A DNA stretch of 64,000 bases from positions 34,207-98,206 of the forward strand of contig JAAWCJ010000030.1 in assembly GCA_022793195.1 (NCBI GenBank). Reading direction: 5' to 3'. Both the position numbers and the translations under genes were made by a program. Position 1 is the stretch's first letter; every line of letters starts with the position of its first letter. This DNA is from Lachnospiraceae bacterium (GTDB taxonomy: Bacteria > Bacillota > Clostridia > Lachnospirales > Lachnospiraceae). Of the stretch, positions 4,454 through 54,227 are shown piece after piece. The notes under the pieces are model-generated. The model made no database searches and was not told the origin of the DNA. It saw only the letters and a program-made list of their open reading frames with translations.

Positions 4454-4705
4454 GGGACTGTTGCAAAATATCAGGATTAATATGTACCCGGCCTCCTTTC
4501 CTGTCTTCGTGTTTGTCCGATAGGCAGATTTTGCAGGTTTTGTGAGGCTAGCGGCGCCAGCCCCGCTGACCGGTTCTATGGAAGCGGAGGCTGGTGGCAA
4601 TAGGCGGCGAAGCAAAACCCAAAAATCAACGTGGACAAAGCGAAAACAGGAAGGGAGGCCGGGCACATATAAATATCAGGATGGTTCATATTTTGCAACA
4701 CCCCC
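4454..4705 (-). repeat. Fold-back structured repeat, copy A (orientation read from mntP)
   Basis: Arms TGTTGCAAAATAT...CCCGGCCTCCTTTCCTGT and ACAGGAAGGGAGGCCGGG...ATATTTTGCAACA; core GATAGGCAGATTTTGCAGGTTTTGTGAG...TTCTATGGAAGC...GGCAATAGGCGGCGAAGCAAAACC shared with 43872-44127 and, diverged, with 54033-54227. Confidence 0.9.
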
Positions 4706-8583: not shown

Positions 8584-9498
8584 TTATACTATTACATGTT
8601 TGTAATCCAGCTCTTTCATAACATCCAGCAGTTTCTTTTCCTCTTCTGAAGTGAGATTCTCCATGGGTTTTCTCATATTGCTGGTTTTAATGATTCCTTC
8701 GTCTTTCAGGATCACCTTGTAGGCAGCAATATTATTTTTCTCACACATGATGGCGTTCAGGATATTGGTCCTGCGCTGATACTTGGTGGCTGTCTCAAAG
8801 TCCTTCTTCTGGATGGCATCCCATACGGCTGCATAGTGTTCCCGGATGATCATGGCGTTGCCGGATACTACGCCGTCGCCTCCCACGGCGCACAAAGCTT
8901 CAAATAAATGATCCGGCCCCACCAGGACGCTGAACTTCTGGTCATTTACCATCATAAACTGCTGCAGCTTTGTGAAATCAGGATAGCTGTATTTGATTCC
9001 GATTACATTGGGGCAACGCTTGGCAACGCCTTCGCAAACCGCCACATTGACGTCGTTTACCGCATTTTGTGGAATTCCATACATGTAAACCGGGAAATCT
9101 GCAGGGACGCTTTCTGCCACTGCCCCATAGAAATCGATCAGCCCCTGATCGCTCAGTTTATAAAACGCCGGTGTCACCACTCCAATTCCGTCTGCCCCGA
9201 TTTCCACTGCGTGGCGGGCCAGCTCAATGGTATCTTTCAGGCTCCACGCCCCCACATGTACAAATACCGGGATACGGCCGGCCGTATGTTTCACAGTCAC
9301 CTCGGCCACCAGTTTTCTTTCTTCCAAACTCAGGTACATCATCTCTCCGGTGGTACCGCAAGGGTAAAGGCACTGAAGCCCCCCCGCGATCACATGATCC
9401 ACCAGGTTCTTTAAAGATTCCACATCAATGGTATCTTCGTCTGTAAGCGGCGTCACAATGGGAACTACTGTCCCGAATAATTTCTGCATCTCTCTCAT
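8584..9498 (-). CDS. DapA-like dihydrodipicolinate synthase/N-acetylneuraminate lyase family aldolase
   Basis: FGTVVPIVTPLTDEDTIDVESLKNLVDHVIAGG, PCGTTGEM, GIKYSYPDF. Confidence 0.88.
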   Translation of the reverse strand: MREMQKLFGTVVPIVTPLTDEDTIDVESLKNLVDHVIAGGLQCLYPCGTTGEMMYLSLEERKLVAEVTVKHTAGRIPVFVHVGAWSLKDTIELARHAVEIGADGIGVVTPAFYKLSDQGLIDFYGAVAESVPADFPVYMYGIPQNAVNDVNVAVCEGVAKRCPNVIGIKYSYPDFTKLQQFMMVNDQKFSVLVGPDHLFEALCAVGGDGVVSGNAMIIREHYAAVWDAIQKKDFETATKYQRRTNILNAIMCEKNNIAAYKVILKDEGIIKTSNMRKPMENLTSEEEKKLLDVMKELDYKHVIV

Positions 9499-43620: not shown

Positions 43621-43720
43621 GTTTTTTTCCTCTCTGTCTCATTTGCCGAAAAACGGCAGTCTTTTTACTGGGTTTTATCATAACACAGCAAGGGATATTT
43701 GTCATCCCCCGGAAGGGGGT

Positions 43721-43756
43721 TGTCGCAAAGTATAGACAATTCGGATATTTTGCGAC
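43721..43756. repeat. Short hairpin resembling the terminal arms of the fold-back family
   Basis: TGTCGCAAA ... TTTGCGACA. Confidence 0.55.
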
Positions 43757-43763
43757 AGTCTCG

Positions 43764-43860
43764 GCATAAAAGATTGCACTCCTCGCAATCGCCACGCAGG
43801 AGCGGTGCCTGAAAGGCTAATTTCTTCTCTGTAAACCGCGCTCCTCCTGAATCCTATATA
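43764..43860. repeat. Interspersed repeat family 2, copy 2
   Basis: AAAAGATTGCACTCCTCGCAATCGCCACGCAGGAGCGGTGCCTGAAAGGCTAATTTCTTCTCTGTAAACCGCGCTCCTCCTGAATCCTATA. Confidence 0.8.
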
Positions 43861-43871
43861 CTAATAACAAA

Positions 43872-44127
43872 AGGTAGCTGTGCAAAATATAAACATTTAT
43901 AGATGCCCGGCGCCCCCGCCTGTCTCTGCGCTTGTCTGGTAGGCAGATTTTGCAGGTTTTGTGAGCACAGCGGCGTCTGCTCTGCTGACCAGCTTCTATG
44001 GAAGCAGCGGCAGACGGCAATAGGCGGCGCAGCAAAACCAAAAAATCAACGTGGACAAGCGCAGAGACAGGCGGGGGCGCCGGGCAAACATAAATATCAG
44101 AATCATTTATATTTTGCAACAGCCCCT
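43872..44127 (-). repeat. Fold-back structured repeat, copy B
   Basis: 32-bp perfect arms GCCCGGCGCCCCCGCCTGTCTCTGCGCTTGTC (43905-43936) / GACAAGCGCAGAGACAGGCGGGGGCGCCGGGC (44054-44085) flanking the conserved core; outer TGCAAAATATAAA/TTTATATTTTGCA. Confidence 0.93.
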
Positions 44128-51696: not shown

Positions 51697-52836
51697 ATGT
51701 TTGCAAATATTTACTGGAAACGAATCCTCGTGGCCGTCAGAAACAGAGGCACACTCATATGGACCTGGATTTTCCCGCTGATGATGGCGACCCTCTTCTA
51801 TTTCGCCTTTTCCGGTCTTAACGACGCGGAGCTTTTAAAAACCATTCCCGTGGGAATTGTAACCTCGGACGAGTATGAAAACGATACGGCCTTTCAAACC
51901 ACCCTCACGGCCGTTTCCGACCCGGAGGAAGGTTTCCTTGCCCTCACGGAATATGACACGGCAGAGGCGGCAGAAGAGGCTCTAAAAGGCGGGGAAATTG
52001 AAGGTTTTATCCGCCTGGAAAACGGTTCCCCAAAGCTTGCCGCCACCAAAAATGAATTGAATCAGACCATTTTAAAAAGTTTTCTGGACCAGTATGTCCA
52101 GACAAAACATACAGTCGTATCCCTTCTCGGGGAAGGGACTGGGGATGTTTCCCGGATTTTGTCTCTGTTTGACACGGAGGCCTGGACCAAGGCCCTCTCT
52201 CTTTCCAAAAACCCGCCTTCCGAGACGGTCAGTTACTTTTTTGCGCTCCTCGCCATGGTGTGTCTGTACGGAGGCTTCCAGGGGTTAGACAGTGTTTCCT
52301 ATCTCCAGGCCAACCTTTCTCCCATGGGTATCAGAAGGACTATTTCCCCTGTAAAACGGTTTCCCATGGTGGTTCTTGACCTGCTGGCCGCCCTCACGGT
52401 GCATATGGCCTGCCTGCTGTTTTTGCTGGCTTATCTGGTGTTCATCCTGGGTGTTGACTTTGGCGCCAGCCTTTTGCCTGTCATTGTCACCTGCCTTTTC
52501 GGAAGCTTTTTGGGACTGTCTTTTGGCGCTTTTGTCACAGCTGTTTCCCGTGCAAAGGAAGGCATGAAAGTGGCTGTTATTATTACCGTCTCCCTGATCT
52601 GCAGTTTTGGCGCAGGCATGATGGTTTCCGGTATCAATTATAAGATCGCTCAGGCCATCCCCATCCTTTCCTGGCTGAATCCGGCGGCTCGGATTTCCGA
52701 CGCCCTCTACTGCCTGTATTACTATGACGGATACAGCCAGTATTTCCTGAATCTGGGAATCCTGGCCGCCATGGCTCTTGTGTTTTCTGTAATTACCGCA
52801 TTTTTCCTGAGGAGGCAGCGCTATGAAAGTATTTAA
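51697..52836 (+). CDS. ABC-2 type transporter permease
   Basis: N-terminal TM, extracytoplasmic domain, then about 5 TM segments; operonic with 50748-51683. Confidence 0.88.
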   Translation: MFANIYWKRILVAVRNRGTLIWTWIFPLMMATLFYFAFSGLNDAELLKTIPVGIVTSDEYENDTAFQTTLTAVSDPEEGFLALTEYDTAEAAEEALKGGEIEGFIRLENGSPKLAATKNELNQTILKSFLDQYVQTKHTVVSLLGEGTGDVSRILSLFDTEAWTKALSLSKNPPSETVSYFFALLAMVCLYGGFQGLDSVSYLQANLSPMGIRRTISPVKRFPMVVLDLLAALTVHMACLLFLLAYLVFILGVDFGASLLPVIVTCLFGSFLGLSFGAFVTAVSRAKEGMKVAVIITVSLICSFGAGMMVSGINYKIAQAIPILSWLNPAARISDALYCLYYYDGYSQYFLNLGILAAMALVFSVITAFFLRRQRYESI

Positions 52837-54034
52837 GGCTTCTCTGTTGATTTTAAGGCGCCGCGCGGCGCAGGTGACTGTTTACTTTTCCATGTTCACC
52901 GCAATGTTTATCATCATTGCTTCTTTTTATTCCGATCAGGTGACAACGGATTTTTCTGCTGTCCGTCCTTCTTTCACCGTCATCAACCGGGATCAGGATA
53001 CGCCTCTGACGGACGGTCTTCTGGAGTTTCTCCGGGAACGCGGCACAGAGCAGGTTTTCCCCGATGAAAAGAAGCAGCTTCAGGATGCGACTTTTTATCA
53101 TGCCACGGAATATATCCTGATCATACCGGAAGGTTTTGATGAATCTGTCTGGTCCGGCTCCCCTCTCTCCCTGGAAGCCGTATCCGTGCCGGGAACGGGA
53201 AAAAGCTATTACCTGGACAGCCTGGCAAACCAGTACTGGAACTTTGTAAATGTTTACCACAAAGCGGACCCGTCCCTCGACCGGGCCGCCGTCTCTCAAA
53301 TGGCCCTGGAAGCACTTTCCACGGAAGCTTCCGTGGAAATGGTACGTTTTTCCGAAAGCCAGCCGGTCAGTGAGCTGTATGAGTCTTACAGCCGTGTCCA
53401 GTCTTATATCCTGATGGTGCTGACCCTCCTTTGCGTAAGCAGTATTACCATGTCCTTCCGGCGTCCGGACCTGCACATGCGGAACCTCTGCGCTCCCATT
53501 ACCACCCGCCAGAAAAATCTCGGCCTGTTTCTCTACTGCGCCCTCGTGGGGTTCGCCGTCTGGCTCCTCACCAGCGCCGTGGGATTTTTCGTCTCCCTGC
53601 CGACCCTTCAGGGGACGGACGGGCGGCTGATTGCCCTGCTGTTTTTAAACAGTTTCCTGTATACGCTGACGGCTCTTTCCATCGCCATGTTGCTGAACTA
53701 TTTTATATCCAATCCCAACACCCAGAATGCCATCGCCAACTTCCTGGGTCTGGCTTTAAGTTTCCTGGGAGGAGCCTTTGTCCCCCTGGAATTTTTAAGC
53801 GAAGGGTTGCGGGCCGTATCCCGTTTCACCCCCGTCTACTGGTATTCGGAGGCGGTGTCGGATATTTGCCGCCTGACGGTTTTAAATAAAGAAACAATGG
53901 CTCCTGTCTGGCGCTCCTTTGCCATGGAACTGGCCTTTGCCACCGCTATCCTCTGCCTGGCGCTTGCTGTGGGAAAATCCAAAAATAAGGCGGAGAAGTC
54001 CTTCGGAAGTACGAGGACTGAGATAGAAATGTAA
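52823..54034 (+). CDS. ABC-2 type transporter permease
   Basis: Same topology; overlaps the previous gene by 14 bp. Confidence 0.88.
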   Translation: MKVFKASLLILRRRAAQVTVYFSMFTAMFIIIASFYSDQVTTDFSAVRPSFTVINRDQDTPLTDGLLEFLRERGTEQVFPDEKKQLQDATFYHATEYILIIPEGFDESVWSGSPLSLEAVSVPGTGKSYYLDSLANQYWNFVNVYHKADPSLDRAAVSQMALEALSTEASVEMVRFSESQPVSELYESYSRVQSYILMVLTLLCVSSITMSFRRPDLHMRNLCAPITTRQKNLGLFLYCALVGFAVWLLTSAVGFFVSLPTLQGTDGRLIALLFLNSFLYTLTALSIAMLLNYFISNPNTQNAIANFLGLALSFLGGAFVPLEFLSEGLRAVSRFTPVYWYSEAVSDICRLTVLNKETMAPVWRSFAMELAFATAILCLALAVGKSKNKAEKSFGSTRTEIEM

Positions 54035-54227
54035 ACAACAACCCAATCCCCCCGGTTGGTCTTGCGGGCGGACGGTAGGAAGGTTTTGCAGAATTTTTCT
54101 GCGCCTAGCGTCGCCGGCACTGCTGACAAGCTTCTATGGAAGCAGCTGCCGACGGCCATAAGCGGCGCGGAAAAATCCAAAAACCGACGTGTCCGACTGC
54201 AAGACCAACCGGGGGATTGGGTTGTTT
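54033..54227 (-). repeat. Fold-back structured repeat, copy C
   Basis: AAACAACAACCCAATCCCCCCGGTTGGTCTTGC / GCAAGACCAACCGGGGGATTGGGTTGTTT arms around core GGTAGGAAGGTTTTGCAG...GCTTCTATGGAAGC...AAAAACCGACGTG. Confidence 0.92.

Follow-up and report, generated by a model that had tools for sequence, protein, structure and literature searches.

A putative lineage-specific family of dispersed long-hairpin intergenic elements in Lachnospiraceae

The three long fold-back sequences found in a 64,000-nucleotide stretch of a Lachnospiraceae genome (hereafter the window) belong to a repeat family that has approximately 55 full-length matches in the same genome (2.69 Mb in 57 contigs, 90% complete), as detected with a covariance model. 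We consider it probable (roughly 0.6) that this is a lineage-specific Lachnospiraceae family of non-autonomous, dispersed long-hairpin elements, which have arms shaped by template switching, lie in the position of transcription terminators and enclose a core that folds in a strand-specific manner. RNA discovery ordinarily takes covariation between stem arms as proof that an RNA is functional; here, template switching can produce the covariation of the arms, as suggested by mirrored indels and a flipped core. The presence of >50 copies per genome and of several related species allows mutational covariation to be separated from selective covariation by strand asymmetry. In addition, a lineage-specific repeat that apparently occupies terminator positions has consequences for how transcript ends are annotated in Lachnospiraceae of the gut.

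Copies in the window and distribution of the family

The copies that the initial annotation had placed at 4454-4705, 43872-44127 and 54033-54227 (copies A, B and C) are all present as located, and their folds lie far above those of dinucleotide shuffles (z = -10.6 for A, -14.8 for B and -12.7 for C; 0 of 200 shuffles as good in each case). A covariance model (A1/R1) built from 32 copies of the same genome identified exactly A, B and C on the plus strand of the window (E = 1e-32 to 1e-40), together with weaker mirror matches on the minus strand. The features are as follows.

4454-4705, plus strand: copy A, full fold-back; outer arms with GGGACTGTTGCAAAATAT / ATATTTTGCAACACCCCC
4519-4633, plus strand: conserved core of copy A, GATAGGCAGATTTT ... 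AAAAATCAACGTG
43716-43762, no strand assigned: outer-arm mini-hairpin that has no core, GGGGTTGTCGCAAAGTAT...ATATTTTGCGACAGTCTC, with copy B about 110 bp away
43873-44126, plus strand: copy B, full fold-back; inner arm with 32 of 32 positions paired
43938-44053, plus strand: conserved core of copy B, GGTAGGCAGATTTT ... AAAAAATCAACGTG
54035-54227, plus strand: copy C, full fold-back; own arms AACCCAATCC.../...GGATTGGGTT
54074-54191, plus strand: conserved core of copy C, GGTAGGAAGGTTTT ... AAAAACCGACGTG

The inner arm of copy B is thus the perfect 32-bp arm that had been described. The flanking arms had been regarded as differing among the copies, which is true of C, with its own arms, but not of A and B, which have an outer arm (TGTTGCAAAATAT-like / ATATTTTGCAACA) in common that C lacks. 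Copy C follows immediately upon the stop codon that ends the ORF at 52823-54034 and is flanked by convergent ORFs. On visual inspection, the segment between the mini-hairpin and copy B (43764-43866; GATTGCACTCCTCGCAATCGCC...GCCTGAAAGGCTAATTTC) is similar to a third repeat in the congeneric genome G009, where that repeat is found at places at which the genome of the window has the element (L172 and L208).

The element is 200-340 bp in size, and its copy-specific, self-complementary arms enclose a core of approximately 116 nt. Besides the full-length copies, the genome of the window (own genome) contains a further group of sequences matching the core alone, among them about six copies with extra core hairpins, and >20 core-less hairpins of approximately 40-65 bp in which nothing but the outer arms is present (GGGGCTGTTGCAAAATAT-N11-ATATTTTGCAACAGCCCC). 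The search of relatives, proposed at the outset along with that of the genome itself, also supported the existence of a family: the core was found in 7 of the 11 genomes of the genus, in which the copy number per species ranges from 0 to >50, and relatives were found in seven further Lachnospiraceae genera. In a draw of 150 genomes (149 genera) from the bacterial family, eight were positive, including the own genome and one (G133) accepted from the search alone. When GTDB genomes were scanned for an exact pattern, 11 contigs were obtained, recorded as Lachnospiraceae, Lachnotalea, Blautia or Eubacteriales MAGs. A class-wide search, which was insensitive as few candidates were scored per genome, detected the element in the own genome only. 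Spread by phages or plasmids was rejected as a candidate, because no match was obtained in plasmids, phages or viral contigs. A diverged copy in G006 (L152) and G008 (L160) looks identical in both, including its flanks; other aligned DNA of these two genomes is approximately 83-93% identical.

Different behaviour of core and arms

Across genera, the core can be approximated as GRYAGGCAGATTTT-GCAG-TTTTGYGAGCATAGCG-(long variable P4 hairpin)-AATAGGCGGCGCAGCAAAAC-AAAATCAACGTG. P2 and P3 form short, conserved stems, and P4 changes freely with compensation. Unpaired stretches of the core are conserved between genera, and the mean column entropy of unpaired core positions is 0.67 bits (1.64 bits in the arms). 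One core motif reads GATAGG in most cores and GGTAGG in some. The GCTTCTATGGAAGC mini-hairpin reported initially is found in most own copies, with G.U-type changes, but not in many copies of G006 and G008 (e.g. CCCGGTTTGATGGAAGCC). In these, the apical loop of the long P4 stem is the better interpretation, and the apical hairpin of other genera is a different one (CTGA-GCC..GGC-GAG). Several variant cores were also observed. In five copies of the own genome (L048, L049, L098, L100 and L101), a strongly conserved two-hairpin module of approximately 90 nt (GAGCACTTAGCGCC...GTGC and AAAGCACTTAGCAAGG...GTGCTTT) is inserted, L103 contains only one hairpin of this module, and L158 and L163 contain a different inserted hairpin on the 3' side of P3.

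In an alignment of 63 core sequences, 26 of 31 pairs have changed on both sides, and double-changed cells number 308, compared with 83 in shuffled alignments; slid controls gave no more than 69. Covariation, whose loss upon enlargement of the alignment had been named beforehand as a refuting outcome, persisted in a larger alignment (A3), in which 50 of 55 pairs covary and 961 cells are double-changed (274 when shuffled). The core pairs of the own genome include 70 G.U and 15 A.C combinations, and changes between nearest neighbours have the same bias (36 versus 10, binomial p = 1.6e-4). Furthermore, the core folds more stably as the plus than as the minus strand in 50 of the 53 own copies and in 23 of 30 related copies. 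The conserved unpaired stretches and this strand asymmetry, with G.U favoured over A.C, point to selection on the folded plus strand of the core. The earlier view that a nucleic-acid structure rather than a protein is maintained is therefore upheld for the conserved core.

Arm sequences differ both among copies and among species, and pairing is kept inside each copy: the complementarity of the two arms of a copy is 0.8-0.97 over most of their length, compared with 0.5-0.6 between copies. Even among the nearest copies, paired arm changes are frequent from the start. Single-sided arm changes comprise 8 G.U and 7 A.C in copy pairs differing by 16-30 bases, and 33 G.U and 10 A.C in more distant pairs; static counts show a modest G.U excess (70 versus 40). 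G.U counts for the arms based on A3 were set aside, because this alignment is model-fitted. Given the modest G.U excess, selection may also act on the arms. Mirrored arm indels number 17, compared with 6.9 in shuffled data (maximum 14 in 500 shuffles). Copies L007 and L012 are only one core base apart, yet length changes are present in both arms, and L012 and L021, two core bases apart, have a mirrored one-base indel in common. With these mirrored indels, the arms display the homogenisation of template-switched quasipalindromes, for which indels and changes of several bases mirrored between the arms are characteristic. An apparent extension of the palindrome into the unique flanks was also considered and rejected; its excess beyond approximately 80 nt was lost with an anchored control, and the extension was retained only near the arm base.

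For polymerase template switching in inverted repeats, two outcomes are documented, homogenised arms and an inverted spacer (PMC8604942); RNA hairpins can also be maintained by this process (PMC8794818). Inversion of the spacer in place was observed at one orthologous locus. At C2:97737 of the own genome and C83:3958 of G009, a sister species, the element lies between the same two genes with flanks approximately 85-89% identical; the core, >90% identical, is inverted in place in G009, and the arms have different sequences that are paired in each genome. Two independent insertions at this locus are still conceivable in place of such an inversion. Other genomes have different structures there: in G004, a plain long hairpin that includes runs of A and of T (AAAACCGTCCGCCTCCAGC...GCTGGAGGCGGACGGTTTTT), and another hairpin in G005, the loop of which contains, by eye, core-like fragments (GGAAGC..CATAGGCGG..CCGTGTCTGC). 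At a second locus, G009 has a core-less mini-hairpin and the own genome a full copy.

Because the mirrored indels and the core inversion fit template switching, covariation of the arms does not by itself constitute evidence for a functional RNA. DNA template switching between the arms is the likely source of their paired changes, which would be largely mutational rather than compensated by selection, and the same process would continually homogenise the arms and flip the core. Of the two explanations initially offered for the paired changes, selection or arm-templated conversion, each therefore appears to apply to its own region: strand-specific pairing selection to the core, and mainly conversion to the arms. 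The compensatory stem changes described initially are real, but arms and core differ in behaviour between near neighbours.

Position at gene ends

Copies of the element adjoin stop codons or gene 3' ends. According to a simple ORF caller, 16 of 30 own copies and 14 of 38 copies in relatives lie between convergent genes (30 of the 68 copies with both neighbours called; raw counts with no formal background), and only two own copies and none of the relatives' lie between divergent genes. Copies in tandem gene contexts have no preferred orientation (17 sense and 19 antisense). Just outside the right arm, T is no more frequent than inside (3.1 versus 3.6 of 8 positions). The equal tandem orientations and the in-place flipping of the core speak against a function of fixed sense toward a neighbouring gene, and the proposal of a dedicated 3'UTR RNA or long attenuator transcribed from the upstream gene finds no support in these data. 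A symmetric role, such as bidirectional termination, fits both observations. Judged from its position, the hairpin is likely to be a putative bidirectional intrinsic terminator, and by taking the place of such a terminator it would persist at gene ends.

It is conceivable, though in our view unlikely, that the family is a functional structured RNA, encoded in 3'UTRs or as a stand-alone sRNA, with all stems including the arms under compensatory selection and with the copies representing duplications of a useful RNA. The strong covariation, the preference of the plus strand for G.U over A.C (marked in the core, weak in the arms) and the conservation of unpaired stretches across genera would all be expected of such an RNA. 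However, the unbiased tandem orientation, the inverted core at the orthologous locus, the mirrored indels between near-identical copies and the wide range of copy numbers within one genus are difficult to reconcile with it.

Dispersal and relation to known repeats

The initial annotation had listed a hairpin-transposing element among its candidates. Mobility is in agreement with the copy number and with presence/absence patterns such as that of the G008 copy at C22:16704, which directly follows a stop codon at a site that is empty in G006 and G010; we infer transposition from these two kinds of evidence. As to the enzyme, none was found: the domains RVT_1 and Y1_Tnp are absent from the main carriers, as detailed below.

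The outer ends are GGGGCTGTTGCAAAATAT in the own genome and CCTGTGCGGTTG in G006 and G008; thus, they differ between species of one genus, and the core stays the same. In 22 of the own copies listed, no outer end was detected at the stringency applied. Compared with a mispaired control, direct repeats at the element flanks are in excess by 0.03-0.05 in own copies and by 0.08 in G006, G008 and G010; an A/T-rich target-site duplication of 8-9 bp, noticed by eye in G006 and G008, was dropped as barely above mispaired flanks. Unlike direct repeats, inverted agreement between the flanks did score above this control. No transposase ORF or autonomous partner was found beside the single outer-end matches inspected, in draft assemblies, which lose IS copies. 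These data bear on the view that the element is an ordinary MITE, in which a DDE transposase acting in trans recognises the outer inverted repeats and the core is passive cargo. The outer ends common to the copies of each genome, the core-less mini-versions with the same ends and the species-specific bursts are MITE-like features. Nevertheless, we regard this view as doubtful: ends that vary between congeneric species around a constant core are the reverse of a MITE, terminal inverted repeats common to all copies were not found, some 20 own copies have no outer ends, and neither a target-site duplication clearly above the mispairing control nor an adjacent transposase ORF at the inspected matches was seen.

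A REPIN- or REP-like element, for which a Y1 (HUH) tyrosine transposase would move the folded DNA in single-stranded form, is very improbable. The element is palindromic, extragenic and present in many copies, its fold is strand specific with G.T wobble tolerated in one strand, and the GGTAGG of some cores resembles the GTAG tag of REPs (PMC3733652). However, Y1_Tnp (PF01797) is absent in carriers G000, G004, G008 and G009 (drafts 86-97% complete), with Y1 fragments found in G006, and conserved, terminal, GTAG-tagged short palindromes are lacking; the conserved part is internal and mostly carries GATAGG. Least probable of all is a retroelement-like mobile RNA copied in trans by a reverse transcriptase, to which the RNA-like strand-specific fold and the modular accessory core hairpins would be suited, since RVT_1 (PF00078) is absent in 10 of the 11 genus genomes, including carriers G000, G004, G006 and G009, with one reverse transcriptase present in G008. 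A composite transposon was also considered and rejected, as the arrangement was seen nowhere else than in G114, where two inverted copies (L124; C114, 1851-4659) surround a tyrosine-recombinase-like ORF and two small ORFs.

Returning to the family of non-autonomous long-hairpin elements favoured here, its core may be kept because the machinery that carries copies to new gene ends recognises the folded plus strand, either as RNA or as single-stranded DNA; a trans-acting enzyme of this kind would best explain why the core alone is conserved between genera. A more far-reaching version, in which a mobile element is conserved solely in its strand-specific folded core and a factor reads this fold and spreads it to gene-end hairpins, with palindrome arms subject to template switching and cores flipping in place, is put forward tentatively and seems to us rather improbable as a whole.

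The window had no match in an Rfam 15 cmscan, and copy B and seven relatives gave only long-hairpin matches far below the gathering thresholds (e.g. mir-4773, 50 versus 100 bits), in accordance with the initial annotation, which had recognised no named Rfam family. No HEARO (IscB omega RNA) match was obtained for copy B at E <= 10, and a literature search with sequence strings of the element returned nothing. We know of no sequence in common between the element and the bcr repeats of the Bacillus cereus group. In the available excerpts of their descriptions, bcr1-bcr3 (MITE-like) and bcr10/bcr18 (structured) are the closest to the element in character (PMC3446304, PMC2267715): they are interspersed, on a scale of approximately 150 bp (bcr1 is 167 bp, with 31 copies; PMC2267715), MITE-like or of conserved secondary structure, and often in UTRs (PMC3446304). 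These excerpts describe neither free-running self-complementary arms nor in-place core inversion, and the lineage is another one.

REPs, BIMEs and REPINs are likewise extragenic, palindromic, of high copy number, non-autonomous and often near transcript ends (PMC3733652, PMC3116915). REPs, however, are 20-40 bp long, bear a GTAG or CGTC tag on one of their ends and have a RAYT of the Y1 type as partner (PMC3733652, PMC3116915), from which the element differs in its length of 200-340 bp, its conserved centre, its variable arms and the absence of the Y1 domain in the main carriers. Prokaryotic MITEs, as far as the excerpt of PMC10969869 describes them, resemble the element in their inverted terminal repeats, non-coding nature and core-less mini-forms, but the element has no ends common across species and is conserved in its internal core. 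Template-switched quasipalindromes share arm homogenisation and spacer inversion with the element (PMC8604942, PMC8794818); those described arose as mutational events in inverted repeats that are unrelated, and their spacers changed by 2-5 bp, whereas in the present case a dispersed repeat family is subject to the process and the flipped spacer measures approximately 116 nt. Intrinsic bidirectional terminators are also hairpins between convergent genes, and G004 has a plain one at the element locus, but the element is several times larger, is repeated and has a conserved folded core. The absence of a Y1 partner and the internal core place the element outside REPs and REPINs, its ends that are not common outside ordinary MITEs, and the lack of a match outside Rfam. 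It is best filed among dispersed intergenic palindromic repeats, as a variant of that kind.

Two other repeats were encountered. A separate MITE of approximately 126 bp (GGAAACGCTGATC...GATCAGCGTTTCC) with a TTAA target duplication lies at 701-827 of L164 (G008, C22); its empty site is found in L170 (G006, C62, near 9206-9218), and more copies are present in G006. An intergenic repeat of approximately 130 bp (AAAGAATCCTGC...GCAGGATTC...CGCCGCAGTGCGATCC) lies beside an element copy in the own genome (L165, 11377-11512) and is very abundant, occurring in dozens of places in G009 and G001.
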